This document shows positions 1,063-53,421 of a DNA stretch of 64,000 nt, piece after piece. Each line of letters begins with the position of its first letter. The first letter of the stretch is position 1. Made by a program: the position numbers and the translations under genes. This stretch comes from a virus: positions 186,001-250,000 of the IMG/VR virus record IMGVR_UViG_3300042868_007959; one strand, given 5' to 3'. Under the pieces are notes generated by a model. The model ran no database searches. It was not told the origin of the DNA and was given only the letters and a program-made list of their open reading frames with translations.

Positions 1063-3231
1063 TTATACTATTTCTATTGGTTCAACAAGAACTTCTATTT
1101 TACCAAACATTTTATCTAATTCATTTTGATCGATAACTTTATTGGTATCTACATCATCATCAAAATCGTCTGGATCTACAATTATACCACCTTCTGATCC
1201 TGCATCAACTTCTCTTTTCTTATTCCAATACTCTGAACAAGTTTGATCTAATTTATTTTCTAAATCTACTAATTTCCCAACAGATAAAGGTTTCCCATCT
1301 ACACTTGTTTTAGGTAAAAATCCCGCTATTAATTCGTCAACTGTTGGGACTTTGGGGAATGCACCACCGACCAATGGGGTATTTCTTAAAAAATCACTTA
1401 TGTCTTTGAACCATTCATTATCTCTTTCTTTACCTTTAAATTGTTCATTAGTTTCTTTTTCAAAATTTTGTAAAGATTCCTTTAAGTATTTTATACGCTC
1501 TCTTAATTTTGTAGATTTACCTTCTTTATCATTACAAAAATCTTCAATTTCTTTTTGATTCCATGAGGCAATATTTACTATATTATTATATTCTACACTA
1601 AATTCTTCTAATGCCGTCATATATTCATCTTTTTTATTAAAAAAAGCGTCTACTTTTTGGTTACATTCACTTATACAACTATTAGTATTAGCATTACCAT
1701 AACCGAATTTACTTTCACATTTTGATCTACATCTAGCGTAACCAATTTTCCTTAAATTTTCTAAATCTCTTTTAACAGATTTCAGTGGTTCTACTACTAA
1801 AAATCCTAAAGGATGATACTTCCATAGTTTACTATTACCATAATCGGCACCTGCAGTCATTATTAAGGATTCTGAATCAGGTAAACTACCTCTTTGGGTT
1901 GATACATAAATTTCATTTAAACTAATTAAAGCGACTTGTTCTACCACAATTATTCTAAGGACATCTTCTATATTTTTCATTCTTTTACCTGACCAACCTT
2001 CAGCATTTTTAGGCATGTTATAGTCAACAAAACTAAATCTTTTATTACTATATAACTTTTTTCCTGAAGTAAGAAAACGAACCACTTTTAAACTTTCAGA
2101 TATTGTTGGGAATATATATCTAAAAGTTTGTCCTAGTTTATCGTTAATTTTACCCGCAAAATTATTTTTTGGGGTATTGTCTACAATTGTTTTTTGTATT
2201 ATTGGGTTTTCACCACTAGTTGGATCTACGTCAAAGTCTTTAATAGGACTCGATGGTGGAGTAACATCTATAGGTTTTAAATTTTTCTGACTAATTAAAT
2301 TTAAATTATCATCAAATATCAATTCAAACCCCTCAACAATATTAACACTTCTATAACCACCATTTGGTAATTTTACTATTAATACTTTCCCACCGTCAAT
2401 TTCTTTTGCTAATCCTTCAGGTGTAATACTTCTCCCTTTTCCGTCACCTAAATTTTTAAGTGCTCGTTCAATAGCATCTATTATTTCACCTTTTATTACA
2501 TCAGGATTACCATTCGCATTTATTTCATCTGTTGTTGCTTTAGTTGGTCCAGCAGAAGAACCACCATCAACACCATCATAATAGTCATTTACTTCCTTAC
2601 TAGCACTATTAGGATCATATGTATCATCTTTTTTAATATTATCACCTTCTATTTTATAAGTTTCTATTTTTTCTTTACCACCCACAGTCTCTACTTTATG
2701 AACAACATTTTCACCTGTATTAGATTTAGTAACTATGGTAGTTTTAGATTTAGTTTTTGGTGGTGTATATTTACCTTTACTTTCTTTCCATAAATCAAAT
2801 ACCATACCTCTTAAATCACCTTCAGCGGGTAAATCATTTATCACCTGTAAGATTAATTTATCATCCGCAGTTTTTAAGAATCCACTATCTGACCATTTTT
2901 TAAATGATAAAATTGCGTCATTTGCGTAATCCCAGTTAATGCCCATAGATCTCCATAAAGATTTATAGTCGTTTAAATGTCTAGCTAAATCATCAAAAGT
3001 ATTAATTTCGGCATTTAAAAAATTAGTTGCAAGTTTTGGGTCAACATTTTTAATAGCTTTTGCAACTGAAGAACTAGCCGTCTCTAATGCATCAGATAAT
3101 CTTCTACCAATACCTTGTTCAGTTAATAGTTTATTTTCTTTTAAATTACCATATAATCTTTCCTCAGTAAATAAAGATTTAATTCTCTTCATTTCTTCAT
3201 TTAAATTATTATATTTTTTTTTCATATTCAT
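1063..3231 (-). CDS. Tagged virion protein with SEQGIGRRL-type domain
   Basis: 722 residues. The N-terminus carries the recurrent tag (LNEEMKRIKSLFTEERLYGN), followed by LLTEQGIGRRL, where LLTE and LFTE fit the T4 prohead-protease site (L/I)xE. Residues about 38-165 are close to the N-terminal domain of the 998-residue protein at 7636-10632 (shared AKAIKNVDPKLATNFLN, DYKSLW, LPxEGDLRG, FDLWK), so the domain is duplicated. A Lys/Thr/Asp-rich linker follows. The C-terminal half has a small Cys cluster (CRSKCES, CISECNQ, about residues 500-525) and a helical region, ending in an acidic tail. No enzyme motif was found. I infer an internal capsid protein, perhaps injected. Confidence 0.65.
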   Translation of the reverse strand: MNMKKKYNNLNEEMKRIKSLFTEERLYGNLKENKLLTEQGIGRRLSDALETASSSVAKAIKNVDPKLATNFLNAEINTFDDLARHLNDYKSLWRSMGINWDYANDAILSFKKWSDSGFLKTADDKLILQVINDLPAEGDLRGMVFDLWKESKGKYTPPKTKSKTTIVTKSNTGENVVHKVETVGGKEKIETYKIEGDNIKKDDTYDPNSASKEVNDYYDGVDGGSSAGPTKATTDEINANGNPDVIKGEIIDAIERALKNLGDGKGRSITPEGLAKEIDGGKVLIVKLPNGGYRSVNIVEGFELIFDDNLNLISQKNLKPIDVTPPSSPIKDFDVDPTSGENPIIQKTIVDNTPKNNFAGKINDKLGQTFRYIFPTISESLKVVRFLTSGKKLYSNKRFSFVDYNMPKNAEGWSGKRMKNIEDVLRIIVVEQVALISLNEIYVSTQRGSLPDSESLIMTAGADYGNSKLWKYHPLGFLVVEPLKSVKRDLENLRKIGYARCRSKCESKFGYGNANTNSCISECNQKVDAFFNKKDEYMTALEEFSVEYNNIVNIASWNQKEIEDFCNDKEGKSTKLRERIKYLKESLQNFEKETNEQFKGKERDNEWFKDISDFLRNTPLVGGAFPKVPTVDELIAGFLPKTSVDGKPLSVGKLVDLENKLDQTCSEYWNKKREVDAGSEGGIIVDPDDFDDDVDTNKVIDQNELDKMFGKIEVLVEPIEIV

Positions 3232-3241
3232 ATATTTTATG

Positions 3242-3925
3242 TTAATGTTGTAATAATTTTAATATTTCTGTTTTATCCATACCCTTATTGAGAACATTAC
3301 CATTAACAATATTACTACTATTTAGATAATAAGTAAGGACATCACCAAATTTTAATACACCTGAAGGTATATTCATAGAACTAGATTCACTACTACTAAT
3401 TGTCACATCTACTAAACTACCTGAACCATCTTTCTTTTTAAATGGTGAATTTTCCCAATCAGAGCTACCTCCTTTAAAAACACCTACATATTTAAAGGTA
3501 GAGGTTCCGCCTTTTATTTTGATGTCGGTACCATCACATTCGTATTTTGATCGGTACATTAATTTTTTACTACCATTTTCTGGATTTAATAAAAAAGTTA
3601 ATATTAATTGATTATCGGAATAAAATGTTAAATGAAAAGTAGGTATACCACTTGTTTTATAATTACTTTTAGCCAATACGAAACAATCTTCTACAGTATT
3701 ACCAGCAGAAGCAACAGATATTCTACCACTTACATCTGATAAAGCTTGTTTTGTACATTTTATATTGTCGTTACTATCACATATATTTTCAGATTCAGTA
3801 GGATTAAAAACTTTATATCCATTAGATTCTAAATCTTCCTCACATTGTTCTAAATCTCCACCACATTGTTCTTTAAGCAACATTAAAGTTTTAATTCTAT
3901 TTAATTGCTCCGTTAAGTTCTTCAT
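3242..3925 (-). CDS. Tagged virion protein, unknown function
   Basis: 227 residues starting MKNLTEQLNRIKTLMLLKEQ, the clearest short form of the shared tag; LLKE followed by Q fits the (L/I)xE cleavage pattern. Six Cys occur in the first 60 residues after the tag (CGGDLEQCEED, ENICDSNDNIKC), followed by a Ser/Gly-rich beta-type body (VSGRISVASAGNTVEDCFV, LTFYSDNQLILTF). The gene sits between two other tagged genes and its 5' end overlaps the 62-residue coiled-coil gene by 29 bases, so the two are probably translationally coupled. No family recognised. Confidence 0.55.
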   Translation of the reverse strand: MKNLTEQLNRIKTLMLLKEQCGGDLEQCEEDLESNGYKVFNPTESENICDSNDNIKCTKQALSDVSGRISVASAGNTVEDCFVLAKSNYKTSGIPTFHLTFYSDNQLILTFLLNPENGSKKLMYRSKYECDGTDIKIKGGTSTFKYVGVFKGGSSDWENSPFKKKDGSGSLVDVTISSSESSSMNIPSGVLKFGDVLTYYLNSSNIVNGNVLNKGMDKTEILKLLQH

Positions 3926-4085
3926 TAAATATTTTTTTTAATTCTTCTTTATATAATTGTATTTCTTCTTGTAAGATTTCAATACTCTCTTTATCATTTA
4001 TATTATAAATATTAAATAAATTATTAATTTCATCTAATCTATTTTTTATAATATCTATTCTTTCTTGTATTTCTAAAACTATCAT
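3897..4085 (-). CDS. Small coiled-coil protein
   Basis: 62 residues, almost entirely charged helix with heptad-like spacing (IQERIDIIKNRLDEINNLF, then IEILQEEIQLYKEELKKIF). The start overlaps the stop of the 612-residue gene by four bases (ATGA type), and its end overlaps the next gene by 29 bases. Such tight coupling on both sides supports a genuine gene in the operon. It could be an assembly partner or chaperone of a neighbouring tagged protein; this is a guess from size and context. Confidence 0.55.
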   Translation of the reverse strand: MIVLEIQERIDIIKNRLDEINNLFNIYNINDKESIEILQEEIQLYKEELKKIFNEELNGAIK

Positions 4086-5920
4086 TTTTGATTTTTTAAA
4101 TAATCCTCTTGTTGTTGATTTAATAAATCTATTGCATCCGATCCTTTTTTACCGTCATCTACACCAGACACTGCATCCATCTCTTCTTTATTATCAACGT
4201 ATCTAACATTATCTTTTCTATTCTTTTCATCGGTAGGTGCCATTTCTATATTAGATACTTCTTTACCACTTATACTTTTATTCATTAAATCAGAAGTTTG
4301 TGTAGATAACCAATCCTTAAATTTTTTAGTTTGAAATTTAGGGTTATTTAGTAACCACTCTCTTGATTTTTTTATATCGTCTTCAGTTGGTATTTCTTCA
4401 CTTTTTGTCCAAGGTCTCCATCCTTTAGTATAAGCGTTATTAAGTAATGTATTATCTGTAATTGATCCATCAGAAAGAAATATTTCTTTAGTAGACTTCC
4501 AGTCATAACCATCATTTTTAATATTAGTTTGCACAGTTGGTTTAAGAGAATGTTGTACTAAATTAATTTTATCCGATAACCATTTAGCTACTTCAGGTTC
4601 ACTTAAAACCTCTGATAATATAACATACATACCTAACTCTTGTAAAGCTTCTTTTCCTGCAATAGTTTTCATATACGCATTTAATGATGTAACTACATCA
4701 CCATTATTTTGTAAAACTAAATTTTTAAAGTTTTTATTTTTTGAAACTGTAAGTAAGTTAGCCCTACCTACCCTACTTTCTATTTTTGTTAATGCGTCAC
4801 TGTAAATTTTTGCAGATTTAGGATCAATTTTAGCAAAATTATTAATTATATCGTGTCCGACTAATATCTCAGATTGATTAAGTCCGTATTTATCTGCAGT
4901 TTCTTTATAAATTTTTACTAATTTTTGATTTTTTACATCGGTTGATACATTTTTTAAAAGAGGTAATTCATTATCAACCCTTTTAATTACATCATCCGCA
5001 TACTTATAAACTTTAATATTTGCACTACCTTTAGTCAATATTCTATTAGTTTGACTAACACCTCCTCCTAAAAATCCACCAAAAAGTGTTAACCCACCAG
5101 CGAGTATAGCGGCATCTCTTTCTTCTTTTGTTTTCGCATTAAAAGCCTCGACACCATATGTAGAAGCATTCGCAAAATCTATTCCCGCACTTAACGCTAA
5201 CCCAACTCCTGGTATTGCTAGTACTGCAATAGAAGCGATATCCAAAGCACAATGATAGTCACTAAAACAATCCCCAATATACTCCCATACACTGGTAGAT
5301 TTTTCATATTGATTTAAAGTTCCCTTATTGTATGAAATATCATAACTAGCAATTTTTTGTATTCTGTTTTTTATTTGACTGTAATTATCTGACCCAAAAT
5401 ACTTAGTAAAAAAGTTCCACCAACCTTCAGGAAAATAAGACGACCTCCAAGCATTTTTATCATACTTAAAAGTTGCTTCTAATTCTTTTTGAATTTTTCC
5501 CCACTGAAAATAAATAGTATCATTATTTGCGATATCAGATGCTCTCTGTTTACCTATCATTTTATCCGATATTTGATCAGCCAAATCACTGAAATCTTTT
5601 GCAACATATAGTCCACCTCCCGCTGCCACATTACATGTACCTAATTCCGCTTTTGAAATACAAACATCATACATACCTTTGGTACCTGTAATTACTTTTT
5701 CAGCGATATAAACATTATTTAATTCCTTTATAGCATTTAATGCTGATTGAGCAAAAACATGATTGGCAGACAATGAACCACCTATTAAATAATTGGGCCA
5801 ACCATTACTTCTTAAAAAATTTTTAGTAGATTCAACCTCATTACTAATAGATGATTTAGTTTCTTCTTTTAAAAATATTCTTTTATATTGATTTTCCGTT
5901 ATGAAAATTTTTTTTTTCAT
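4082..5920 (-). CDS. Tagged virion protein with pre-toxin-like hydrophobic region
   Basis: 612 residues. The N-terminus (FITENQYKRIFLKEE) is a variant of the shared tag with FLKE as the likely cleavage point. Residues about 225-295 form a hydrophobic Gly/Ala-rich stretch (CALDIASIAVLAIPGVGLAL, then ILAGGLTLFGGFLGGG), which recalls the pre-toxin regions that precede toxin domains in bacterial polymorphic toxins and could insert in a membrane. The middle is helical (KYADDVIKRVDNELPLL, AETADKYGLNQ-like segments). The C-terminus is hydrophilic with repeated Lys/Asp. No catalytic motif was identified. I infer a head-packaged protein that may cross or perturb the host membrane on infection. Confidence 0.55.
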   Translation of the reverse strand: MKKKIFITENQYKRIFLKEETKSSISNEVESTKNFLRSNGWPNYLIGGSLSANHVFAQSALNAIKELNNVYIAEKVITGTKGMYDVCISKAELGTCNVAAGGGLYVAKDFSDLADQISDKMIGKQRASDIANNDTIYFQWGKIQKELEATFKYDKNAWRSSYFPEGWWNFFTKYFGSDNYSQIKNRIQKIASYDISYNKGTLNQYEKSTSVWEYIGDCFSDYHCALDIASIAVLAIPGVGLALSAGIDFANASTYGVEAFNAKTKEERDAAILAGGLTLFGGFLGGGVSQTNRILTKGSANIKVYKYADDVIKRVDNELPLLKNVSTDVKNQKLVKIYKETADKYGLNQSEILVGHDIINNFAKIDPKSAKIYSDALTKIESRVGRANLLTVSKNKNFKNLVLQNNGDVVTSLNAYMKTIAGKEALQELGMYVILSEVLSEPEVAKWLSDKINLVQHSLKPTVQTNIKNDGYDWKSTKEIFLSDGSITDNTLLNNAYTKGWRPWTKSEEIPTEDDIKKSREWLLNNPKFQTKKFKDWLSTQTSDLMNKSISGKEVSNIEMAPTDEKNRKDNVRYVDNKEEMDAVSGVDDGKKGSDAIDLLNQQQEDYLKNQK

Positions 5921-5931
5921 ATTACTATTAG

Positions 5932-6972
5932 TTATTTAACTTTTGGTTCGACTCTAAATGTACAATCATTAAGATTATTATCTGCATCTATAATTGTAAT
6001 ATTATGTTCCGATGGTTTTAAATTTAATGTAGTATATACCGCATTAAGTGAATCTGATCTAAAACTAATTTTTATTTTCCCGTTTTGAGGATTTTCTTTT
6101 TTCTGCATAAAAGTATAACCTCTTTCACCATTAAATTTATATTGGTTTCCTGTAATTTTCTTTATTTTACCAATTACCCTACCTCTAGTATCTTTGACAT
6201 CATATTTTTGACCTTCTACTCCTTTTGAAACTGAGGCTTCCCCACTTCTATAATCAGATATATATTTATTCTCCTCAAATGAAGATATCATAGTCATAAG
6301 TTTTTCATTACCCTCAAATTTATTATAGAAATTAGCCATACATCTCTCTACAGTTTTATATGCATCTGGATCAAACCCAAATTCTTCTAAATCTCCAGGA
6401 CCAGCCCCTTTAGACCAAGCTTTATACATTGCTTTAAGATGTTCTTTACAACTATCTATATTATTGCTAATATCTTTTCTATCTACTTTTACGTCAGTTT
6501 TAATATCTTTTTTGATACCTTTACCTTCTTTTTTGGACATAAACTGTAATTCCGCATCTTTTGTAATATAAATTTCTACGGGTGTACCACTATCATCATT
6601 AACTCTTTTTTTAACATAATACATATCTTTACCTGGTTTTGGTCTAGATACTGTCCCTAACTTCAATTTAATGTCAACAAATGACATTCTTTTCACATAA
6701 GTCTTTCCACCAATAACTTTTTGTTCATAGAAATCTAATGAATCACTTTCACTCCCTTCTATTTCTTTTTTCTTTTCATCTGTTAATTCAACAAATCCTT
6801 CAGGAATGTTCGGATTAGGTTTACCATCATCCTTTTTACCATCATCCTTCTTATCATCATCAACTGGTTTATCATCCTCACCTTCTACTAAATTCCCAAA
6901 CAATCTCTCTTCAGTAAATAAAGATTTCATTCTCAGTATTTGTTCATTTAAATTTAAAATATTTTTTCCCAT
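5932..6972 (-). CDS. Tagged virion protein with acidic linker
   Basis: 346 residues. The N-terminus LNEQILRMKSLFTEERLFGN matches the tag of the 722-residue protein almost residue for residue. It is followed by a low-complexity Asp/Lys linker (about residues 34-52) and then a mixed alpha/beta body (YEQKVIGGKTYVKRMSF, YVKKRVNDDSGTPVEIYI). The C-terminal part is beta-rich (GRVIGKIKKITGNQYKFNG). No known domain recognised. It is the first gene of the tagged group in transcription order, preceded by an AATATTTATT motif at 7005-7013. Confidence 0.55.
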   Translation of the reverse strand: MGKNILNLNEQILRMKSLFTEERLFGNLVEGEDDKPVDDDKKDDGKKDDGKPNPNIPEGFVELTDEKKKEIEGSESDSLDFYEQKVIGGKTYVKRMSFVDIKLKLGTVSRPKPGKDMYYVKKRVNDDSGTPVEIYITKDAELQFMSKKEGKGIKKDIKTDVKVDRKDISNNIDSCKEHLKAMYKAWSKGAGPGDLEEFGFDPDAYKTVERCMANFYNKFEGNEKLMTMISSFEENKYISDYRSGEASVSKGVEGQKYDVKDTRGRVIGKIKKITGNQYKFNGERGYTFMQKKENPQNGKIKISFRSDSLNAVYTTLNLKPSEHNITIIDADNNLNDCTFRVEPKVK

Positions 6973-7075: not shown

Positions 7076-7564
7076 TTAGAATACACTTATTGCTCTATCA
7101 AAACGAAGTGTTGCAGTAATATCTGCCAAATCAGAAGATGAATAATCTAATGACCCAAAGTCCACATCGTTTAATTGTGTCCCTTGTAAAATCCATTTTT
7201 GAACCACTACACCTGTTGGGTCTAACATCTCTAACTCTATGTCTTTCTTATAACCTGCAGCATAACCTTGTCTACCTGTTACAGATTCAGAGTGTAAACG
7301 AACCCACTCCATTAACGCCTGAGTCGCAGAAGGACCAATAGGGTCTCTAAAAGTTACAGAGATTGATTCCCAGTTAAATCTACCAATTACATATGTAGAA
7401 GTATTTAAAAAAGGTATCTCCACCTCTTGACTCGTATATTTTGGTCGGCTAGTTGTAGATACCCACCATTCTTGAATTCCCAATTCATCTGGAAATCTCA
7501 AAATAAACCTATTCTTTCTTAGCGGTTCGTAAGGAACAGGCATTCTCATTAATAAATCAGCCAT
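7076..7564 (-). CDS. Tail tube protein (T4 gp19-like)
   Basis: 162 residues, the usual size of T4-type tail tube subunits (T4 gp19 is 163). Typical features are the N-terminal RKNRFILRFPDELGIQEWWV, the VEIPFLNTSTYVIGRFNWESISVTFRDPIGPS region, the HSESVTGRQGYAAGYKKDIEL segment and the C-terminal LDYSSSDLADITATLRFDRA. Hexameric rings of this protein form the inner tail tube inside the contractile sheath. It is a single-gene unit with its own upstream motif (7611-7619) and a strong terminator, which fits a high-copy structural protein. Confidence 0.9.
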   Translation of the reverse strand: MADLLMRMPVPYEPLRKNRFILRFPDELGIQEWWVSTTSRPKYTSQEVEIPFLNTSTYVIGRFNWESISVTFRDPIGPSATQALMEWVRLHSESVTGRQGYAAGYKKDIELEMLDPTGVVVQKWILQGTQLNDVDFGSLDYSSSDLADITATLRFDRAISVF

Positions 7565-7635: not shown

Positions 7636-10632
7636 TTATTTTTCAATAATAATTCTTTTCTTTTTAGGGTTATTTGGGTCAGATGTATCATACACATTAA
7701 AATGTATCTCTGGATATTTCACACTCAATTCTTTCCTTATTAAATTTTCAATAATCTCTATATTACTTAAATCGTCATCACTATAACCAACACTAATACC
7801 CTCAAAATCAGGGTTATCCTTTATTTCTTCAATTTGTTCTATAACTCTTTCCACAAAACTCCTAAACGCAATTTCTTTTCCTTTTTCGGGATTTGTACTT
7901 GATATATCTAAACCAAAACTATTTAAAAATTCTTTTGAAGATACTGGATGATAATCTTGTAATTTAAGATAATCATTTATTGATGTGTCTTTAAGGTTAC
8001 CCATCATTTTTTCTTTTTCACTATAAGAAAAGTTTTTATCTATTAATACTTTAATACCATCTATTAGTGACTGTGGTGAATTTGATCTGGCAGTAATGAT
8101 AGAGAAGTCATCTCCATTAATTAAAGCCTCTTTAAAATCATTAAAACTAGGTCCGTAACTTCTACTATCTATTGCATATTTAACATCTCTAATAAAAGAA
8201 TCGTACTCTCTAAAATCTTTAAACGCTTCTAATATGTCATTATTAATATATCTAAACTCATCACCTAATTTATGTCTAATAGATCTAAATTGTTCGGTAG
8301 AAACTGAAACAGGTACCCAATGTAATCCACCAACTTTATATTCTAAATGAATTCTTGTTGGCATTTTTAAAATATTATCATCCCAATCGAATGAATATGT
8401 TTTTTTGATTGATTCAGTTAAATAACTTTTTTTATATATAATAGATTCATTTTTGGGAGTTTCATTCTCATCATCGGTTAAACCACTAACAATAAATGGT
8501 AATAACGCTGGAAATCCAGCCTCAATCAACTTATAAGCTTGTCTATATAAATCCTTTTCAAGTTTTTTTGCTTGTTCAGGATAAATTTTTTTCCATTTAC
8601 GTTCTAATTTACCTAGTACATCAAAAAATTCTCTTGGTATATTATTAACCCAAGCATCAACATCTTTTAACTCATTTCCTAATTTAACTTGATCAGTAAC
8701 ATTTTTATTTAAAAATTTATCTATAAATGTTTTAAAATAATCTTTTATTTTTTCTACACCTGTTAGATTATTAATATTTGGTTTTTCTGCACTCAACATA
8801 GTTTTATATTTTTGTAAGTCAATATCTACTAATTTCTGAGATTTATTTGTCCCCCTTAAATAATCAACTAGAAAAGTTGCAAAACCTTTATTTTTTTCTA
8901 AAGTACCTAACTCCAACAAAGTTTTAATATTTGCAGTGAATTCCGCCTCAATTTCCTTAACATGACTCCAATAACTTAAATCACTTGCAGATTCTTTTAC
9001 AATCCTCTCAATTTCGGGTGTAGTTATATTATTCTCTATATATTTTAAAAATTGTCTATCATTTAAATTTTCTGTTTTGTTTTTTATTTTTTTATAATTA
9101 TCCCCAAACTCAGACCAACTATCAATTGATAATTTTAGAGATCTAATTTTAACATCGTTACCAAATAAATTTATATCAAACTTAGTAAGTGGGATTTTCA
9201 CTGTATCCTTACTTATATATTTTTCAGGTATAATTTTATTTTCTAAAGCCCATTTTTTGAATTCATGTACCCAACTGTAATCCTTACTAGTATCTATATT
9301 TTTTTCCACCCCAAATTGACTAACCGCCTTTTCAGCAGCGTCATTATCCTCTCTTTGCCATTGGAAAAAATCTGCGTTATCTACTTCCTCATTTTTTATG
9401 GGTGTCTTTTCTCTTTTACTTTTTAAATAATCCCAAGCCTCTTTCCCATCTACGAATTCGCTTGATTTATAAGTATTAAAACTATGATTACTTTTTTTTT
9501 GTATGACGTGTGTTAATTCATGATAAATCGTATGAAATATAGTATTTTTTAATTCTTCTAAATCTTTAGGATTTCTAGCTTTTTTTATTTCTTTTGTATT
9601 GATTATAACCCATTGACCCCAATTACCATTTATTTCATCTGCATACATTCTTACCCCTAAAGGAACATCGTATCTATAAACATACTTTTCTTTTAATTTA
9701 GGATCTTTTAATATTTTTTCATTTTTAACCCAGTCCTTTATATACGGTTTTTTATCCCAATCAGCATTTTCAAAAGTCTTATCATATTCCTCTTTATATA
9801 GATCAAATAATTTATCATCATCAATTTTTGCATTATTAAACTGCTCAGGACCTTTATCATTTAAAGAAAATTTTACGTTATCACCATTTATCTGTAATGT
9901 AACATAAATAGGTTCACCAGTATTTGTATCATACCCCCATTGATCCTCAAAACCATATTTTTTAAACGACGCATCTATAATATCCCACTCATCTTTTGGA
10001 ATATCAGATAATTTTAATCCAGATACTTGTTGTGGTATTTCTTTAGAATCTGTATCTAAATCTATTTTAGTATCGTCTATATTTGATAAATTACCTTCAT
10101 TATCTATAGTATAATTTTTTATCTCACCACCTTCAGTTTTTTGTACTATATTCTTACCACTTTTTTTATCTTTAACTACAATAGTTTGTGATTTAGGTTT
10201 CGTTGGTGAGTACGTACCTTTACTTTTTTTCCATAAATCAAAAACTATCCCCCTTAAATCTCCTTCAGTTGGTAAATCATTTATCACTTGTAAAATTAAA
10301 TTATCATCTGCAGTTTTTAAGAATCCACTATCTGACCATTTTTTGAAATTAATAACTGCCTTATTTGTGTAATCCCAGTCAATTCCTGTTGATTTCCATA
10401 AAGATTTATAGTCATTTAAATGTTTACCTAGATCATCAAAACTTTTTATTTCAGTATTTAAAAAATTAGTTGCAAGTTTTGGATCAACATTCTTAATAGC
10501 CTTAGCGACTGCGGAAGAACTATCTTCTAAAGCATCCACTAATCTTCTACCAATTCCTTGTTCAGAAATTAAATTATTATTTAAAAATTTTTTTAATTTT
10601 TTAATTTCCTTTTCTGAAAATAATTTACTCAT
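7636..10632 (-). CDS. Tagged virion protein: SEQGIG domain + zinc metallopeptidase + HAD domain
   Basis: 998 residues with three recognisable parts. Residues about 20-150 repeat the SEQGIGRRL domain of the 722-residue protein, behind a short basic helix ending LISEQ, a candidate (L/I)xE cleavage site. Around residue 370 is FHTIYHELTHVIQK, an HExxH zinc peptidase motif in a helix, with Glu/His-rich sequence downstream. From about residue 744, YSFDWDDNILKMPT, SIITARSNSPQ and VGYSDDDLSN match HAD motifs I, II and late-motif Asp residues of a phosphatase-like fold. The middle is helical. I infer a capsid-packaged multi-enzyme protein delivered with the DNA; the substrates are unknown. It begins three bases after an AATATTTATT motif. 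Confidence 0.7.
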   Translation of the reverse strand: MSKLFSEKEIKKLKKFLNNNLISEQGIGRRLVDALEDSSSAVAKAIKNVDPKLATNFLNTEIKSFDDLGKHLNDYKSLWKSTGIDWDYTNKAVINFKKWSDSGFLKTADDNLILQVINDLPTEGDLRGIVFDLWKKSKGTYSPTKPKSQTIVVKDKKSGKNIVQKTEGGEIKNYTIDNEGNLSNIDDTKIDLDTDSKEIPQQVSGLKLSDIPKDEWDIIDASFKKYGFEDQWGYDTNTGEPIYVTLQINGDNVKFSLNDKGPEQFNNAKIDDDKLFDLYKEEYDKTFENADWDKKPYIKDWVKNEKILKDPKLKEKYVYRYDVPLGVRMYADEINGNWGQWVIINTKEIKKARNPKDLEELKNTIFHTIYHELTHVIQKKSNHSFNTYKSSEFVDGKEAWDYLKSKREKTPIKNEEVDNADFFQWQREDNDAAEKAVSQFGVEKNIDTSKDYSWVHEFKKWALENKIIPEKYISKDTVKIPLTKFDINLFGNDVKIRSLKLSIDSWSEFGDNYKKIKNKTENLNDRQFLKYIENNITTPEIERIVKESASDLSYWSHVKEIEAEFTANIKTLLELGTLEKNKGFATFLVDYLRGTNKSQKLVDIDLQKYKTMLSAEKPNINNLTGVEKIKDYFKTFIDKFLNKNVTDQVKLGNELKDVDAWVNNIPREFFDVLGKLERKWKKIYPEQAKKLEKDLYRQAYKLIEAGFPALLPFIVSGLTDDENETPKNESIIYKKSYLTESIKKTYSFDWDDNILKMPTRIHLEYKVGGLHWVPVSVSTEQFRSIRHKLGDEFRYINNDILEAFKDFREYDSFIRDVKYAIDSRSYGPSFNDFKEALINGDDFSIITARSNSPQSLIDGIKVLIDKNFSYSEKEKMMGNLKDTSINDYLKLQDYHPVSSKEFLNSFGLDISSTNPEKGKEIAFRSFVERVIEQIEEIKDNPDFEGISVGYSDDDLSNIEIIENLIRKELSVKYPEIHFNVYDTSDPNNPKKKRIIIEK

Positions 10633-11121: not shown

Positions 11122-11712
11122 TTATCTTCCTGTTCTTCCGTATTGTCTTGATCTTCCTTTGAAAGCCAATGCTAATCCTGCTGCAACCATAGCCAACGAT
11201 ATTGGTCCACCATAATTTCCTGCTCCAGCCATTTCTACGAAATCATGAATTTTTGTAGTCAACTCAAATTCTGACCAACCAGTTATATTTCCAAGTGCAG
11301 TGATTGCTCCCGATAAAGCTAAACCAGCTCCACCACCCATCATTGCTTTCTCACCGAATGCAGCATTTCTACCACCCATTCTTCTTGGTGTGTCTTCATT
11401 TTCTCTAATTCTTCTTTCAGACATACGACCAGAATTTGGTTCATTTACCTTTCTTTCTAACATTCTAGATTCCTCTGGTGTTAATTCGGGTAAAATTTCT
11501 TCTTTAAAGAAGTCTGAAATTAAATCAACAACTTCACTTTTAGATAATTCACCACCTTCTAAATCATTAAGATCATCATTAGAATATTTCGATAAATTTA
11601 AATTACCGTATGTTGGGTGAACATCATCCATTCCACCCATATCCTCTTTAATAACTCTTTTGACTATTCTTCTTAAATCAGTCTCAGTTAATCTTACTAT
11701 TCTTTTTGCCAT
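11122..11712 (-). CDS. Tagged virion protein with hydrophobic C-terminus
   Basis: 196 residues. The N-terminus RIVRLTETDLRRIVKRVIKE is the classic form of the tag, with VIKE before D as the likely cleavage site. The middle is acidic and contains SKSEVVDLISDFFKEEILPE and a Met/Arg-rich segment. The C-terminal third has two Gly/Ala-rich hydrophobic stretches (MMGGGAGLALSGAITALGNI and GGPISLAMVAAGLALAFKG) that could span a membrane, ending in a basic tail. I infer a small packaged protein that may enter the host membrane. Not recognised by family. Confidence 0.6.
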   Translation of the reverse strand: MAKRIVRLTETDLRRIVKRVIKEDMGGMDDVHPTYGNLNLSKYSNDDLNDLEGGELSKSEVVDLISDFFKEEILPELTPEESRMLERKVNEPNSGRMSERRIRENEDTPRRMGGRNAAFGEKAMMGGGAGLALSGAITALGNITGWSEFELTTKIHDFVEMAGAGNYGGPISLAMVAAGLALAFKGRSRQYGRTGR

Positions 11713-11736
11713 TTTGTAAAATATTTTTTATTTTTA

Positions 11737-12021
11737 TTAGGATTGTACTCCTGAATTTTGTTTGTCTTTAAGACAATTTAGTGCTGCAATAGCTTTCATA
11801 CCTTCACCCATAGGATCCTTAAGTATTATTCCCCCAATTTCCTTAACACATTTAGTATAATCTCCTGTTGTACAAGACATAGGTGCTTTAATACCTGCAT
11901 CCTCACAACATTTCACTAAATCTTCTTTTGGATCTGATTCTTCCTTCAAAAGTTTGTTTACGATTCTCTTCATATCTGATTCAGACAAAGTTATCGTTTT
12001 ACCGTTTTTTCTAATTTTCAT
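11737..12021 (-). CDS. Small tagged Cys-rich protein
   Basis: 94 residues. The N-terminus ITLSESDMKRIVNKLLKEES is the shared tag, with LLKE as the predicted cleavage point, leaving a mature product of about 66 residues. The mature part has five Cys (KCCEDAGIKAPMSCTT, YTKCVKEIGG, LNCLKD), which would suit a disulfide-linked or metal-binding mini-protein. It is followed closely by the 196-residue tagged gene in the same direction. Function unknown. Confidence 0.6.
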   Translation of the reverse strand: MKIRKNGKTITLSESDMKRIVNKLLKEESDPKEDLVKCCEDAGIKAPMSCTTGDYTKCVKEIGGIILKDPMGEGMKAIAALNCLKDKQNSGVQS

Positions 12022-12073: not shown

Positions 12074-14923
12074 TTAAATGTTATCAAAACTAGCACCTGT
12101 GTTAGTGATATTAAATTCTATCGAAATAAATTCTAATGATCTAGTTGGTTTGATAAATATTCTTCCGTTTAATTCGTTTCTGTCAATAGATTCTGGTGTA
12201 TCATCTAATGTTACTCTAAAATCAGTTAACCCTCTTTCTTTTCTGATATTATCTAATATTGGATTAACTAAACTTAAGAACTGATTTCTTACAACATCAT
12301 CATTTTGTTCAAACAACAATCTGATAGATACTGCGGATATAAGTTTTCTAGCTTGTAGTAACAATCTTCTAACGTTAATTCTGTTAAGAGCACTTTCTCT
12401 AACTTGTAATGTTTTATTACCAAAGATAACAACCCCTACATCAGAGAATGTCGCCATAGGATTAATTCTACCTTCATATAAATTATCTCTTTCGTCTAAT
12501 TTAAGTTTAACTCTAGCTTTAATTGCGGTAGTTGTACCTCTATTTAAACCTGCTGCTGCGAACCAAGGGAATGCAACATTATCAGTCAATGCGATGTTTC
12601 TTACAACTTCTACAGTTGGTGGTAACCAAACATATCTATTATTTTCTGAATCATTCATTTGTAACCAAGGCCAATATGTAGCGGAATAATTAGAATCTAT
12701 TCCTGAATCTTCTACAACACTAACTGCCTCTTCCGCTGACAATACAACCCCATCCACATCTACGTCAGGTGTGGTAATTATATATAGTGAATCCGCTCTA
12801 TCAGTTTCAACCATATCAACTGCATTTTCAATTAAACTTGTATTATCTCTCAAATCAATACCAGGTGTTGCAAATACATTTATATTTACCGCTTCTGGAT
12901 TATTAAATGTGTAAATACCATTTAAAAATGCGTAATAATCAGAAGTTATTCCGTCATCACCTTCACTAGTGACAAATGTATTAAATATTCCTTTACTTAA
13001 ACCTAAAATTCCTTTAGTTCCGTTTTTAACGTAATTATCACCATTAGTTCTTTTAGTTCTATATTCGTCCCATCCGTCCCATCCACCGTAAGGTGCGAAA
13101 GTGAATTTTCTAGACGCTATCTTTTCATATGGTCCACCTACTAATGATAAGTCAGTTGTAAATGCTGATATACCAACTTGTAAAGTAGGTACATAACTTA
13201 CACTACCTAAATCTATTAAAGAACCAGTTGCGTTCACATCTAAATGGAAACCATCCGTTCTACCTGTATATATACCGTCATTAACTGCATTTAATCCCTT
13301 ATAATCAAAGAAATCTTGATCCACTCCAATATCACTATTTAAACCTAAGTAAGTTTTTCTTAATTTAGATGTATTGAAATCTGAGTATTTAGTTTTATAT
13401 TCTATTTTTGGTGGTAACGCAGTTCTATTAGAACCAACATATGTTCTATTTAACACACCCTCAAATCCTGATGGGAAATGGTTACCTAAATCTGGATCGT
13501 TTCCGTCCCATAATTCAACCATAACACATTTACTTCTTAATGGAAATTCACCATCAATTGTACCAATTTTTCTTCCTATAAATCCAATAGAATTACTATC
13601 CATAGATAAAGAAGAATATTTCTCTATTACATTAGGGTTAGCGTCTGTATCGTTAAAACTTCTAATTAACAAATCAAATGTTTTATTATCAGGTTGAATG
13701 TTTATAATAGAGAACTTAATATCTTGATTTGCAGCATTACCGTCAGATATTGTTACAAACCTAAATAACCTTTGTAATGTTGACCCTACACCGATACCTT
13801 TAACTTCCGAAAGAACCCAAGGAGATAATGCAGTTTTCCAACCCTCTAAATAATTATTAAGGTTATTTGTAATTGTCCCACCTATTTCTACAAATGATGT
13901 ATCTAAACCTCTAACTTTACCTGCACTAATCAAATCTTCCAATACATTAGTATAGATTTCTTCTACCCATAATTCAGTTTCCTTATCTTGTGTAGATTGA
14001 CCGAATACTCTAGGTAAGAAATTCTTTTTAGTTCTATCCATAGAAACTTCATAGTTAAAGTTTACCCCATTGAATGTGGTACCAGTAATATTAAATGAAG
14101 CCAATGAGTTTGATGGTAATAATGATGTATTAGTCATTATTGTGTCAGTGGCACCTGTTACATCATATGTTAATGTTTCTGTCCCATCATAAGATCCTCT
14201 CGATCTTAAAGTAGCAATTACACTACCATCTATATCTGTATAACAAGTTGCAGTATAACTAACAACTGTACCACTTGTAGTTCCTGTTACAAATCCTGTA
14301 GAACCACTCCCTTTTGTAAGGACTGTCATATCAAATGTTGCCCCACTGAAATTACAACCATTTTTAACATAATATGGTGTAGTTACATTAATTGTGTCAC
14401 CAGTACTTAATAAACCTACTGATGTAAATAACCCATTAATTTGTCCATCCGCATATAATGCAGTTAAATTAGGATCATTAAATGTAATAGTAACAGGTAA
14501 TCCCGCAGTAGTTGCAGAATATGTTAATAGTAATGGGTAACTTGTTGTATTTGTAATACCAGTTGTAGTTGGATCCTCTGAAGAATCTAGTGTGATAGAC
14601 CACGCATTACCAGCTTTATATCCTGATAAACCTAAAACTCTACTAACATATAATTGATTAGTTTGAGATAGGAACGATTTTGCGATGTAATTTAATTCAT
14701 ATTTGTTAAAACCATTAGCTTTATATTTTTCGGGGTTTAGTCCACCAAAATAACTAATGAATTCACCGTAATTAGAGATGAATACAGGTTCAAAAGCTGG
14801 TCCTTTAGGTGTCTCACCTAATAGTCCCAACGTAGTAACCCCAACTTGTCTAGTTACGAATGTTAAGTCTTTTTCAGATGTGAACACACCTGGACTCACA
14901 AAAATTCTGTCTGTTGATGCCAT
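12074..14923 (-). CDS. Tail sheath protein (T4 gp18-like)
   Basis: 949 residues. The N-terminus (RIFVSPGVFTSEKDLTFVTR, GLLGETPKGPAFEPVFISNY, FGGLNPEKY) and the C-terminal domain (YEGRINPMATFSDVGVVIFG, then NKTLQ, and INVRRLLLQARKLISAVS) are typical of myovirus sheath subunits. It polymerises around the tail tube and contracts to drive it into the host. T4 gp18 is 659 residues; the extra length lies mainly in a Thr/Ser/Gly-rich insertion at about residues 110-290 and further loops in the middle, probably surface-exposed domains. It forms its own unit with an upstream motif at 14967-14975 and a terminator downstream. Confidence 0.93.
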   Translation of the reverse strand: MASTDRIFVSPGVFTSEKDLTFVTRQVGVTTLGLLGETPKGPAFEPVFISNYGEFISYFGGLNPEKYKANGFNKYELNYIAKSFLSQTNQLYVSRVLGLSGYKAGNAWSITLDSSEDPTTTGITNTTSYPLLLTYSATTAGLPVTITFNDPNLTALYADGQINGLFTSVGLLSTGDTINVTTPYYVKNGCNFSGATFDMTVLTKGSGSTGFVTGTTSGTVVSYTATCYTDIDGSVIATLRSRGSYDGTETLTYDVTGATDTIMTNTSLLPSNSLASFNITGTTFNGVNFNYEVSMDRTKKNFLPRVFGQSTQDKETELWVEEIYTNVLEDLISAGKVRGLDTSFVEIGGTITNNLNNYLEGWKTALSPWVLSEVKGIGVGSTLQRLFRFVTISDGNAANQDIKFSIINIQPDNKTFDLLIRSFNDTDANPNVIEKYSSLSMDSNSIGFIGRKIGTIDGEFPLRSKCVMVELWDGNDPDLGNHFPSGFEGVLNRTYVGSNRTALPPKIEYKTKYSDFNTSKLRKTYLGLNSDIGVDQDFFDYKGLNAVNDGIYTGRTDGFHLDVNATGSLIDLGSVSYVPTLQVGISAFTTDLSLVGGPYEKIASRKFTFAPYGGWDGWDEYRTKRTNGDNYVKNGTKGILGLSKGIFNTFVTSEGDDGITSDYYAFLNGIYTFNNPEAVNINVFATPGIDLRDNTSLIENAVDMVETDRADSLYIITTPDVDVDGVVLSAEEAVSVVEDSGIDSNYSATYWPWLQMNDSENNRYVWLPPTVEVVRNIALTDNVAFPWFAAAGLNRGTTTAIKARVKLKLDERDNLYEGRINPMATFSDVGVVIFGNKTLQVRESALNRINVRRLLLQARKLISAVSIRLLFEQNDDVVRNQFLSLVNPILDNIRKERGLTDFRVTLDDTPESIDRNELNGRIFIKPTRSLEFISIEFNITNTGASFDNI

Positions 14924-29632: not shown

Positions 29633-31295
29633 AACCATTATTAATTTCTTCCCTTATTGTTGTAATATCTAAACTACAACCAAATAATTTAAATTTACTA
29701 ATCCCACCTTCAAAAGTACCAGCAAAATTTTCTTGTAGTACTAAGTTTTCGTCCTTAATATCAGGACCATTAACCGTATTAGATTCTATTAATCCTTGAG
29801 TACCTCCACCTAAACTGTAATTAAATGGAACACCTTGTTGTTTTTCTCTATATTCATCTAATTCCCTAAAAATAAACTCATCAAAATCCTCTAAAGTCCA
29901 TTTTAAATATCCATTAACATAAACTGTTAATACACCTTTTCTTCTAGGTTTATTCACTAATTCACATTGGGTATATTGTTCATAAGGTTTAAACCTTATT
30001 GCAACATTTGTCCACACATCTTCTGATATAATACCAGGAGAACTATAACATTCATAAATACTAGTTCCTGTAACATATTTTGTGGTTACCGAAGTTGCCG
30101 TAGTAGTTCCTGTACACCCACATCCACATTGTTCATGACAATCTACTATTGTCGTTGCCGTAACTGCCGAACAAACTCCTGTCAATATTATAGTTCTAAA
30201 CCCTATACTTCCATCATCCTTAATTCTAAACCCTAATGCGTTATCTATAATGTCCGCATTTTTATCTTTTTCTTGTGTTATTTCTGTAGTTATACCACTA
30301 AAACAACAACAACTTGATGGTTGATATACTAAAAAAGGATTATTATTTAACACTTCTTCTGAAATCACAGGTGGGGGTAAAGGATATCCTGATGAGGTAG
30401 TATACCCAGTTTCACCACTAAATAAATCCCAAAACTTATTTTCTGCCCTAGTACCCATATAAAAGAAAAATCCTTTATTATTAGGGTATGTATTATTAAG
30501 TGTATTACCTACACAAGATTCGGAACTTTTATTTAATAAGAACGTTGCCGTCCACCCATCTAAACATTCGACATCTAAACCACCTAATCTTTCAGGTAAT
30601 ATTTGATAATTGTATGGAATTGGTTTTGTATCTAAATAACATTGATACGCCTTATTCGGATCGACAGTACAAGTTTGTCCTGTTGTATCACCCGTACCAC
30701 AACAATCAGTTACGGTGTCTCCACTACAAATAGTAGGACATCTAAACCAATCTAACGGCCAAATAAATTTATTATCACTTATTTCATTGAAATAGGTGAT
30801 ATCAGATAATTTAAAGAATCCTTGATAAAACCCACCACATAATTGAGAATATCTACCTACCTCTAAGTCCGTAAGAACATCTATTGGGTAATCGTATGTA
30901 CAACCAGTAACTCTAGTCATAGAGAACCTTGTATCTGCTGATGTTAATGTTAAAGATGATCCTGTAAACGATGATAAAAAAGTTGCCCCACTGGTTGGTG
31001 TATTACAATCGTATATTATAAAACCATTATCAATACCCGTCAAACCAATATCATTTAATGTGATTCCACTACCATTGATTGTTGCACCTGTCCAAGTAGT
31101 TAAACTATAAAGAGTATTTCCTGAGTAACACGCATCATTATCAATATCAATGTCAACTAAAATACAATCCTCTAATATTTGATCATTATCTTGTTCGTCT
31201 GTACAATCATAACATAAAAATAAGTCCCAGTAGTCACTGTTACTTAATCTCATTTTTAAACAATTGTCAAAATTATGTTGGTATATATTACTCAT
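29631..31295 (-). CDS. Cys-rich appendage protein with lectin-like region
   Basis: 554 residues with an unusually high Cys content (about 30), including CGGFYQG, SCCCFSG, DCHEQCGCGCTG and DTVTDCCGTGDTTGQTC. The C-terminal 150 residues (SEDVWTNVAIRFKPYE, KGVLTVYVNGYLKWTLEDFD, FEGGISKFKLFGCSLDI) have the strand pattern of a LamG/concanavalin-type jelly roll, a fold often used for glycan binding. The Cys may form disulfides or bind metal outside the cell. Its start overlaps the 1714-residue fibre gene by four bases, so it is probably part of the same appendage. Confidence 0.55.
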   Translation of the reverse strand: MSNIYQHNFDNCLKMRLSNSDYWDLFLCYDCTDEQDNDQILEDCILVDIDIDNDACYSGNTLYSLTTWTGATINGSGITLNDIGLTGIDNGFIIYDCNTPTSGATFLSSFTGSSLTLTSADTRFSMTRVTGCTYDYPIDVLTDLEVGRYSQLCGGFYQGFFKLSDITYFNEISDNKFIWPLDWFRCPTICSGDTVTDCCGTGDTTGQTCTVDPNKAYQCYLDTKPIPYNYQILPERLGGLDVECLDGWTATFLLNKSSESCVGNTLNNTYPNNKGFFFYMGTRAENKFWDLFSGETGYTTSSGYPLPPPVISEEVLNNNPFLVYQPSSCCCFSGITTEITQEKDKNADIIDNALGFRIKDDGSIGFRTIILTGVCSAVTATTIVDCHEQCGCGCTGTTTATSVTTKYVTGTSIYECYSSPGIISEDVWTNVAIRFKPYEQYTQCELVNKPRRKGVLTVYVNGYLKWTLEDFDEFIFRELDEYREKQQGVPFNYSLGGGTQGLIESNTVNGPDIKDENLVLQENFAGTFEGGISKFKLFGCSLDITTIREEINNG

Positions 31296-34200
31296 CTAAT
31301 TAAATATAGGGCGATATCATTATTTATATCTTTCATTTTTATCCACCTACTTGGTATCTGTTGATTTTTCAGTACCCTTACTTGACCGACTAACCCAACA
31401 ACATTCCATTCAGGTCTTTCAGATCTAGGGATATATAACATATTAGGATCAAAATTTTGACTTAATTTTGGTGTTTGTTCCGTTATTGTTTTGTAAATGG
31501 TTTCACCACTTTCAGTTATATAATCTATCATATCATATGAATAGTCTTCCATAATATATCTACCCCATTCATCTTTTTCATATTTTCCTACCCATTCATC
31601 TGCGGTACCTCCTTCATTGTTACCGATAAGTGTAGGGTTAGAAGAAATAACACCCATAGCGTTATTTGCGTCAACACATACTTTTATTTTATCATCTACT
31701 AATTCGACTACTGTACCGTAAGGTATTGAATCTCCTGATAAAGATTCAAAGTATTCAGCGTAATCCGCACCAGAGTTATATGTTGCACCAGCACCATAAA
31801 CATTACCAGCCGAATCGACTCTAAATGCATTTGATCTAGAGGCGTTACTGGTACCTTTACCGATAATGAAGTATTGGTTAGCGTTTGTTATATTATTATA
31901 TTTACCAGATACGTGTTGTCCTGCTTCATAAGCAATAGTACCCAAACCCTCTGAGTGAGAATATTGAGTAGTTGCAGATGTTTGGTAACCCTCTGAGTGC
32001 GAATAATCTCCAGTAGATTCTGTGGAATACCCTTCAGCGTGAGAATATTGACCAATAGATTCTGACCTAAAACCTTCAGAATGTGAATATGCCCCAATAG
32101 AATCAGTATCATATCCTTCAGAATGTGAAGCAGTACCTTGAGCTATTGTAAATCTACCTTCAGAATGTGAATATGACCCAATAGAATCTGATCTATCACC
32201 TTCAGCGTGTGAACTAATTCCTGATGCCAAAGTCTGAAACCCTTCTGAGTGTGAATAGGAAGTTGTTGCAGATGTTTGGAATCCTTCAGCGTGTGAAGCA
32301 ATTCCTGATGATAAAGTTTCTCTACCTTCAGCGTGTGAATGTGAATTAGTTGCACTTGTTTGAAGTCCTTCAGCGTGTGAACTTAGTCCTGATGCCAAAG
32401 TTTGTTGACCTTCAGCGTGTGAATAGAAAGTTGTTGCACTTGTTTGATTGCCTTCAGCGTGTGAACTAGTTCCTGTAGCCAAAGTCTCTGCCCCTTCAGC
32501 GTGTGAATAGGAAGTTGTTGCACTTGTTTGATCACCTTCAGCGTGTGAATATACCCCCAATGCTAAAGTAAAGCTACCTTCAGCGTGTGAACCAGTTCCT
32601 GATGCCAAAGTTTGGTTCCCTTCAGCGTGTGAATAGGCAGTTGTTGCAGACGTACTTATACCCTCTGCGTGAGAAGCAGTTCCTGACGCTAAAGTACCTA
32701 TACCTTCAGCGTGTGAAGAGTAAGTTGTTGCACTTGTCGGATTAGGAACTAACCCAGATTTACCGAAAAATACCCCACCTTCTGCGTGTGAAGCAGTTCC
32801 TGAAGCAATATTACCGACACCTTCAGAGTGTGAATATTGTCCTGATGCAGTTGTTCCCGATCCTTCAGCGTGTGAAGCAGTTCCTGATGCAATAGTTGTA
32901 CCTCCTTCAGCATGAGAAACATCTCCAGATGCTAAAGTACTTACACCTTCAGAGTGTGAATTAATACCACTAGCAGTTGTAGTATCCCCTTCAGCGTGTG
33001 AATTTTGTCCTGATGCCAAAGTCACACGTCCTTCTGCGTGTGACCCAAATCCTGATGCAATAGTTGATTGACCTTCAGCGTGTGAATGTCGTCCTGACGC
33101 TAAAGTACCTATACCTTCAGCGTGTGAAGAGTAAGTTGTTGCACTTGTTGGTATACCTACTAACCCTAACTTACCTAAAAATGCCCCACCCTCAGCGTGT
33201 GAAGCAATACCTGAGGCAATATTAAAATAACCTTCAGCGTGTGAATAATCACCACTTGCGGTTGTAATCCAACCCTCAGAGTGAGAACTAGTACCACTAG
33301 CAGTTGTCTGATAACCTTCAGAGTGTGAATAATCCCCACTCGCAATTGTTTGAAATCCTTCCGCATGTGATGTAGCCCCACTTGCGGTTGATAAATTACC
33401 TTCAGCATGTGAATAATCACCGATAGCACTTGTTTGAACTCCTTCAGAGTGCGACATAATCCCAATTGCAAATGTATCCGCCCCTTCAGCGTGTGAAAAA
33501 TCACCACTAGCAGTTGTTTGGAATCCTTCAGCGTGTGAACCAAAGTTTCCACCTGCAATTGTTTGATAACCTTCCGCATGTGATGTATCACCACTTGCGG
33601 TTGTCTGATAACCCTGAGCCAATGATAATAAACCACTAGCGACTGATCCACTATTTTTAACCACTATTGCGTCTACACCTGTTGATGCCGTCCAAAATGT
33701 TACTCCTGATGTGGCACCCGATGCAGATAACCAAGTGGCGTTACCAACAGAGTCGGAAACTAAAACATAACCATTTGTTGCTCCTGATGTAACTTGTAAA
33801 GTTGTTGTTTTTGTCTTACCACTAACATCTAGTTTTTCAGATGGTGTCGTAGTTCCAATACCTAAATAACCTGCAATATAATTATATCCCTCATCTTTTA
33901 TATATATACCCCATCTATTTGTTGGTGGGGGGATATTTCCAGATCTTGTGGATTGATCATCCATATAAAACCCATATATATTATTTGTTGATCCATTATG
34001 GGTTAAAGTTATATCAAAACCATTCATCCAAAAACCAACATACTCATTTATAGTACCACCTGCAGTCAAATTCCTTAATACAGATGACGAACTTTTAACT
34101 ATATCATTGTAAGTTCCTGTGTTTGTTTGAATTTGTACTACATTAATTTCGGATGTTAAAGCTTCATTACTATTTAATAATGATAAATCACCTGTATATA

Positions 34201-38590: not shown

Positions 38591-39169
38591 ATGAGTAATG
38601 CAGAAAGATTAAAAGAAATTTTAAGTAGATCAAAAGCGGTTATGCAAATTACGGAGCAAAACCACGGATCAACTTCTAATGGAAGTCAAAGTAATGAATA
38701 TAGTAGTGAAGAAAAAGAAATACCTAATTTAACTGAAAATTTTATTAGGGAAAACCAAAGAACCTCTTCTTCCTCAGTAGCCCCAGTAAATGGTAAATAT
38801 AGAAACATAAATAAATCTAAAATGCCTGAAGCAATTAAAAGGGCGATGATAGATAATCCAATAGATATTCCAGAATCACCATACCATACATTTGAGTTAG
38901 AAGATGTTCCTGAGTTATTGGTGAATGAACAAAGAACTAATAACCAACCTAAAAAAACTAACAAAGTTTCTAATGTAAATGAAACTGTTAAAAGTACTAT
39001 TAACGAAAGTACAATAAGAAAAATAGTTAGAGAAGAAATAGAGAGTGTAGTTAGAACAGTGGTAGAAGAATATTTTGATAAATCACTAGTTACTGAAGAT
39101 ATACAAATCAAAGTAGGACAAACTATATTTTCAGGTAAATTAAAACCGTTACCATCTAAAAGAAAATAA
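38591..39169 (+). CDS. Unknown hydrophilic protein, last gene of the operon
   Basis: 192 residues. The N-terminal helix (NAERLKEILSRSKAVMQITE) resembles the shared tag in spacing, but its order is different. A disordered Ser/Asn/Gln-rich middle follows, then IKRAMIDNPIDIPESPYHTF, a helical TINESTIRKIVREEIESVVR segment, and the basic C-terminal GKLKPLPSKRK. The helical core with disordered arms recalls scaffold or prohead core proteins, but this is a guess. A terminator begins at 39171. Confidence 0.45.
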   Translation: MSNAERLKEILSRSKAVMQITEQNHGSTSNGSQSNEYSSEEKEIPNLTENFIRENQRTSSSSVAPVNGKYRNINKSKMPEAIKRAMIDNPIDIPESPYHTFELEDVPELLVNEQRTNNQPKKTNKVSNVNETVKSTINESTIRKIVREEIESVVRTVVEEYFDKSLVTEDIQIKVGQTIFSGKLKPLPSKRK

Positions 39170-39170
39170 T

Positions 39171-39192
39171 AAAACCCTCATTAGAGGGTTTT
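39171..39192. terminator. Bidirectional terminator
   Basis: AAAACCCTC pairs perfectly with GAGGGTTTT around ATTA, between convergent genes. It follows the 36.5-39.2 kb operon directly and the zinc-ribbon gene on the other strand. Confidence 0.9.
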
Positions 39193-39201
39193 ATTTTATA
39201 T

Positions 39202-39771: not shown

Positions 39772-39786
39772 TTAGTTTTGATATTG

Positions 39787-39816
39787 TAAAGATACAATAA
39801 TTATTTTAATATACAA
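39787..39816 (-). promoter_or_regulatory. Bacteroidota-type host promoter before zinc-ribbon gene
   Basis: On the minus strand TTG, 19 bases, then TATCTTTA (consensus TAnnTTTG with one mismatch), 16 bases before the ATG. Confidence 0.5.
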
Positions 39817-39833
39817 ATTTTTTATCATTTTTT

Positions 39834-39842
39834 TATATTTAT
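39834..39842 (+). promoter_or_regulatory. TATATTTAT late-type motif before the tagged paralogue pair
   Basis: TATATTTATAGG lies 17 bases before the ATG at 39860. Confidence 0.45.
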
Positions 39843-39859
39843 AGGAAAACTAATTTTTT

Positions 39860-41653: not shown

Positions 41654-41667
41654 TAAATTAATAAATT

Positions 41668-45323: not shown

Positions 45324-45352
45324 AATCTTTATTCTTATATAAAAATATTAAT

Positions 45353-46494: not shown

Positions 46495-46500
46495 TGTTAT

Positions 46501-49344: not shown

Positions 49345-49360
49345 AAATATTGAATAAGTT

Positions 49361-50053: not shown

Positions 50054-50056
50054 AAT

Positions 50057-52239: not shown

Positions 52240-52240
52240 T

Positions 52241-53384: not shown

Positions 53385-53421
53385 TTATCTAAATTTTATA
53401 ATAAAATAATAATAAAAACTT

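Follow-up and report, generated by a model that had tools for sequence, protein, structure and literature searches.

Background

In bacteriophage T4, the Alt protein is cut by gp21 at both of its ends, after ITE-6 and LTE-619, and the capsid-targeting sequences (CTSs) of this phage comprise 10-20 residues (PMC5694885). In phages of the phiKZ/SPN3US type, the cleavage motif is S/A/G-x-E or A-x-E, and all identified substrate cleavages in SPN3US, apart from the protease's own, remove N-terminal propeptides (PMC10052503). Among the polyvalent proteins of phages and conjugative elements, the zincin-type metallopeptidase (MPTase) is the commonest hub domain (PMC5512222).

Here we analyze a 998-residue protein encoded in a 64,000-nucleotide stretch of DNA (the window; positions 186,001 to 250,000) of the virus record IMGVR_UViG_3300042868_007959, which comprises 253,879 bases. 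Its kind is known from the T4 internal proteins (IPs) and Alt and from the polyvalent proteins, and its combination of a zincin with a HAD-type domain appears to be new. A previous reading of the sequence alone had regarded this combination as undescribed in phage internal proteins. Zincins in injected phage proteins have in fact been described (PMC5512222), but we found no phage internal protein that joins a zincin to a HAD domain in the open PMC literature, which is weak evidence for novelty.

As in the T4 IPI-III and Alt, the N-terminal tag of this protein ends in [LI]xE, the genome encodes a gp21-type (Peptidase S77) protease, and the gene for a non-structural protein lies inside a cluster of virion genes, although no sequence similarity to the T4 IPs or Alt was found. 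Unlike them, the protein has a second tag between two predicted enzymes, where cutting would give two products. With the inner-head ejection proteins of phiKZ and SPN3US (PMC10052503) it shares an S77-related protease and the predicted removal of an N-terminal propeptide before ejection; it differs in the [LI]xE motif of its group and in a predicted internal cleavage site. Like the polyvalent proteins (PMC5512222), it joins several unrelated domains in a chain that is probably injected and has swapped N-terminal modules, whereas its processing looks like that of a prohead protease rather than of an MPTase; neither ArdC-N nor any other named polyvalent domain scored above threshold, and a text search of the cited paper found no haloacid dehalogenase or phosphatase. 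Crassviruses (PMC10172136) are comparable as Bacteroidota phages whose capsid and tail hold large cargo proteins, and a text search of that paper found no mention of cleavage or of a zinc peptidase.

Gene layout and domain exchange

The sequence-only reading had placed a gene of 998 residues at 7636-10632, which is correct; the coding strand is the minus strand, and the plus strand across this interval is full of stops. The tag, the duplicated module, the HELTH motif and the FDWDDN, ITARS and GYSDDD motifs that it listed were all found in the one chain. Our analysis adds a candidate third zinc ligand (E560/E562), the HAD lysine K919 and an internal second tag (residues 727-740). The features are listed below in window coordinates; a slash before the last residues of a motif marks the predicted cut.

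7636..10632, minus strand: precursor open reading frame, 998 residues, ATG start at 10632 and stop at 7636; full-length homologues L003-L010
10561..10632, minus strand: N-terminal tag, residues 1-24, predicted prohead-protease site ISE/Q (P1' Q enrichment at tagged N-termini)
10021..10560, minus strand: N-terminal module, residues 25-204, also present in the tagged gene at 1063-3231; relatives have other modules in its place
8455..10020, minus strand: zincin-type metallopeptidase region, residues 205-726 (alignments; weak in-register profile match to MPTase-PolyVal)
9508..9522, minus strand: HELTH, residues 371-375; HExxH is kept in all homologues including L067
8938..8955, minus strand: EIEAEF, residues 560-565, with a Glu as candidate third zinc ligand; EIEA is invariant in the alignment
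8413..8454, minus strand: internal tag KNESIIYKKSYLTE, residues 727-740, predicted cleavage LTE/S (14/14 residues kept relative to L005; ungapped match to standalone tags)
7639..8412, minus strand: HAD-type domain, residues 741-998 (64-sequence alignment, as for the four motifs that follow)
8374..8391, minus strand: HAD motif I, FDWDDN, residues 748-753 (D749, D751)
8083..8097, minus strand: HAD motif II, ITARS, residues 846-850 (T847)
7876..7878, minus strand: HAD motif III, K919
7771..7788, minus strand: HAD motif IV, GYSDDD, residues 949-954 (D952-D954)
1063..3231, minus strand: tagged protein with the duplicated N-terminal module (LLTE/QGIGRRL), from sequence comparison with the 998-residue protein
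7076..7564, minus strand: gene for the tail tube, directly downstream (tail tube in PHROGs, E 3e-26)
12074..14923, minus strand: gene for the tail sheath, bounding the conserved locus upstream (tail sheath in PHROGs, E 9e-61)

Residues 4-205 are 63% identical (E 5e-74) to the product of the neighbouring tagged gene at 1063-3231. The same module occurs in L008 and different modules (<31% identity) occur in other relatives; by this comparison, the N-terminal module appears to be exchangeable among them. Compared with the 998-residue protein, L003 and L004 show far less synonymous divergence in the HAD domain (dS 0.06-0.11) than in the zincin (dS 0.34-0.37), which suggests recombination at the border between the two domains.

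Conservation of the zincin and HAD domains

The labels 'zincin' and 'HAD' are assigned from motif order and conservation, and for the zincin also from a weak profile match. Searches with the whole protein against Pfam, PHROGs and PDB returned chance-level matches only, and neither domain was meaningfully matched in Pfam, NCBIfam, PHROG or PDB.

The zincin region is 63-81% identical in the full-length IMG/VR relatives L003-L010, and the divergent relative L067 keeps the same order of parts at 22% identity by BLASTP (29% in the multiple alignment). The HExxH motif (HELTH or HELVH) and the downstream EIEA motif, separated by ~170-190 residues in homologues, are invariant down to this level of 22-29% identity; among these residues is the HExxH Glu, whose conservation the sequence-only reading had named as a check. 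Shuffled versions of the protein contain HExxH by chance in 1.1% of cases. Pairwise dN/dS against close relatives, 0.26-0.39 in the zincin region and about 0.15-0.20 in the HAD domain, shows purifying selection on both catalytic domains. Read by eye, the order of parts fits the published description of the MPTase (N-terminal helix, strands, HExxH helix, Glu helix; PMC5512222). An hhalign comparison with MPTase-PolyVal gave a weak match that is in register on HExxH (probability 13%), while the protein lies below the cut-off of this family (PF18818) and has no Pfam match at E 1. A PDB profile match of the zincin to a designed helix bundle (E 2e-4) covered only a helical region and was rejected as compositional.

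An alignment of 64 HAD sequences shows no change at D749, D751, T847, K919 and D952-954, with motifs I-IV (DxD; T; K; DD) in order. The first Asp, the other residue named for checking, is thus conserved across homologues. Shuffling the C-terminal domain yields a loose HAD motif grammar in 0.07% of cases, and conservation of the motifs in homologues is stronger evidence than this rarity. No named HAD family was found among the Pfam matches of 18 family members at E 1, nor among the Pfam and NCBIfam matches listed for 64 members at the same E value (for Pfam, 25 of 43 families). The HAD profile did not match HAD_2 or NT5C in hhalign, and the comparison with HAD_SAK and PNK3P was made through Pfam only. 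A PDB profile match to helices of PTPN22 (E 0.05) was rejected as compositional. The family has no name in any library searched (Pfam, NCBIfam, PHROG, PDB) and appears to be new. Like the jumbo-phage HAD phosphatases (PNK-HAD, Swiss-army-knife HAD; PMC7824862), it presents the HAD motif set in large phages; unlike them, it combines a locus among virion genes with a capsid tag.

The family was detected in at least 591 viral stretches, reaching phages of 634-735 kb, and in 46 of 288 genomes from the phylum of a Kiritimatiellae MAG, with one match each. The huge phages L272-L275 (LR745206, LR756504, LR756502, LR756501; 634-735 kb) carry the HAD away from any obvious tube gene, and some HADs in phages of this size begin with a short tag-like start, e.g., MDILRFDQFIRES. 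Each of the 288 genomes gave either a match with E <1e-73 or none at all, and the gene neighbours of these cellular HADs (L147, L150, L152, L200, L242-L271 and other genome loci) vary.

Predicted capsid tags and the prohead protease

The N-terminal tag reads MSKLFSEKEIKKLKKFLNNNLISE/QGIG, with the predicted site LISE/QGIG. The same genome has genes for a T4 gp21-family prohead protease (S77) at G000:252169-252627(-) (E 4.4e-24) and for a major capsid protein of the gp23 type (E 1.8e-71) with LLNE/STSA at its N-terminus; an acidic 435-residue open reading frame between these two genes is probably the scaffold. Tag-like N-termini in the related phage group terminate in [LI]xE near residue 24. 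The residue that follows, which lay outside the search pattern for tags, is Q in 32 of 110 tagged N-termini; among internal controls it is Q in 11 of 171 matches (Fisher p 4e-7). The motif is short, with 11 [LI]xE matches in the 998-residue protein, and the tag-like regular expression fits 15% of N-termini versus 4.5% of internal Met-start controls. Comparison of these sequences supports an N-terminal tag with features of a T4-type capsid-targeting and prohead-protease sequence. About ten further tagged proteins are encoded in the window (1063-6972, 11122-12021 and 38591-43725); their bodies are varied, most have no family match, and they are probable internal head proteins.

A second tag at the domain junction

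Within the chain, the HAD domain is preceded by a second tag, KNESIIYKKSYLTE/SIKKTYS-FDWDDN. Related phages encode the HAD as a protein on its own, in most cases of 258-319 residues, which occupies the same sheath-tube locus and bears a tag of its own, for example MKLKLTESQYKLLKE/FKKRAYS-FDWDDN. Anchored on FDWDDN, the fused and standalone HADs align without gaps, and the Glu of the site stands seven residues before FDWDDN in both. An [LI]xE site is present 3-16 residues upstream in 81 of 88 non-redundant viral HADs (86 of 94 in another count) versus 1 of 11 cellular HADs, where the sequences are related and the counts do not represent independent events; some viral HADs carry no tag at all. 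We also considered the internal LTES as the start of a tag instead of a cleavage site, and the ungapped alignment with standalone tags favours the cleavage site. The internal tag appears to be new.

The 14-residue junction is identical between the 998-residue protein and L005 (pS 0.71, dN 0, synonymous sites saturated), while the zincin and HAD domains beside it are 67% and 77% identical. Because all 14 residues are kept despite saturated synonymous change, the junction is no free linker. In L067, an intact tag, KKIIINQHQKGLLTE/F, stands between the divergent zincin and the HAD. The HAD of L067 nests among standalone HADs in the HAD tree, by which the fusion was gained or lost at least twice; L067 represents a separate event, in which its divergent zincin joined a HAD. 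An assembly artefact is unlikely, as the same fusion occurs in a second contig (L139). In the close relative L055 (5353-7734), a second tag-like stretch, KNESFLMKKNFLSEKEKKGLKTYLKKELLIKNKFF, forms the end of the zincin protein and no enzyme follows it; no HAD was found elsewhere in this 26.9-kb contig.

Two alternatives to cleavage by the prohead protease bear on this junction. The protein could be packaged and ejected uncut as a bifunctional enzyme that loses only its N-terminal tag, the internal motif being a relic of fusion. The tag-like tail of L055 indicates that a junction can be kept where no enzyme follows; however, a junction more conserved than both flanking domains at saturated synonymous sites is unlike a relic, an intact tag was retained in the separate fusion of L067, and we regard an uncut protein as unlikely. 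Alternatively, the embedded metallopeptidase might itself free the HAD, before or after injection, in the way that MPTases of polyvalent proteins have been proposed to process their own polypeptide (PMC5512222). Such self-processing seems very improbable to us, given that the junction looks like an S77 site and is shared with the tags of standalone HADs that lack an adjacent zincin.

Genomic context

Whether tagged, untagged or fused, the HAD is encoded just upstream of the tail tube gene and on the same strand in nearly all related phage loci where a tube gene was found, and downstream of the sheath gene in loci where the sheath was also found. This strict synteny, which extends to untagged HADs, would suit an enzyme of virion assembly or a tail-associated protein that is not injected, with the HAD beside the tube gene serving assembly. 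The tags, the [LI]xE/Q sites and the S77 protease point instead to the head interior, as do the many unrelated tagged proteins in the same gene cluster, and a role in assembly or in the tail appears quite improbable. The architecture, the conserved catalytic residues, the second tag, the protease gene and the synteny are all direct observations on the sequence.

Several other loci were noted. L141, a 51-kb contig in the Prochlorococcus single-cell assembly AG-409-L21, carries this phage group's genes for the sheath, the tagged HAD and the tube and is probably a co-sorted or contaminating phage. In the window, a 1714-residue protein (31292-36436) with many SHAEG-type repeats, like the head repeats of trimeric adhesins, is probably a tail fibre, and several glycosyltransferase-like genes (44067-55714) are clustered beside a small SET-domain-like protein (52241-52621). 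Elsewhere in the same genome, G000:58850-58999 encodes a homologue of ribosomal protein S21, as is the case in the described bS21 phages that infect Bacteroidetes (PMC9723584).

Proposed processing and delivery

We consider it reasonably probable that the 998-residue protein is a capsid-targeted fusion precursor, which the prohead protease cuts into two enzymes that are then ejected. We favour this reading because the genome encodes an S77 protease and a capsid protein with a matching LLNE/S, and T4 Alt is cut at the same motif; because the fused LTE/SIKKTYS aligns ungapped with standalone HAD tags; because the junction is conserved relative to L005 and an intact tag is present in the separate fusion of L067; and because the HAD locus by the tail tube is conserved and the catalytic residues are invariant. 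Counted against it are the shortness of [LI]xE, the tag-like matches in controls, the untagged viral HADs and the lack of a HAD in L055, as well as the fact that neither domain matches a library family or a PDB sequence. The sequence-only reading had envisaged two catalytic activities delivered with the phage DNA; the tag features and the S77 protease agree with delivery, but a single chain is improbable in view of the second conserved site before the HAD.

We infer the packaging, cleavage and ejection, and likewise the folds, activities and substrates of the products. The precursor would have originated when a tag, module and zincin were joined in front of a HAD enzyme that had a tag of its own. 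While the head is being assembled, the N-terminal tag would steer the chain into the prohead core, where the gp21-type protease would cut after ISE-24 and LTE-740 to leave an 83-kDa module-zincin product and a 30-kDa HAD within the head. Both would be ejected along with the DNA to act at an early stage in the host; if this reading is true, the HAD family is probably active early in infection. The zincin may target a host protein or co-packaged proteins. The HAD substrate would be phosphorylated, possibly a nucleotide, a nucleic-acid end or a defence signal; by analogy with phage HADs (PMC7824862), nucleic-acid end repair or a signal nucleotide would be the likeliest substrate classes. The fusion would result in equal output of the two enzymes.

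For the wider proposal of a polyprotein strategy we see an even chance. In such a strategy, an internal second capsid-targeting and cleavage tag would allow one gene to supply a zinc peptidase and a HAD of an undescribed family in equal numbers, both released by the prohead protease in the head before ejection, and this fused state would have arisen more than once.

Implications

If the proposed processing is true, head proteases can free separate enzymes from a polyprotein. The [LI]xE/Q tags would then offer a sequence handle on ejected effectors in large phages, most of them uncultured, in which internal proteins lack annotation. The finding would also single out a HAD family that has no name in the libraries searched and is present in more than 590 viral stretches and in 46 of 288 genomes of one bacterial phylum.
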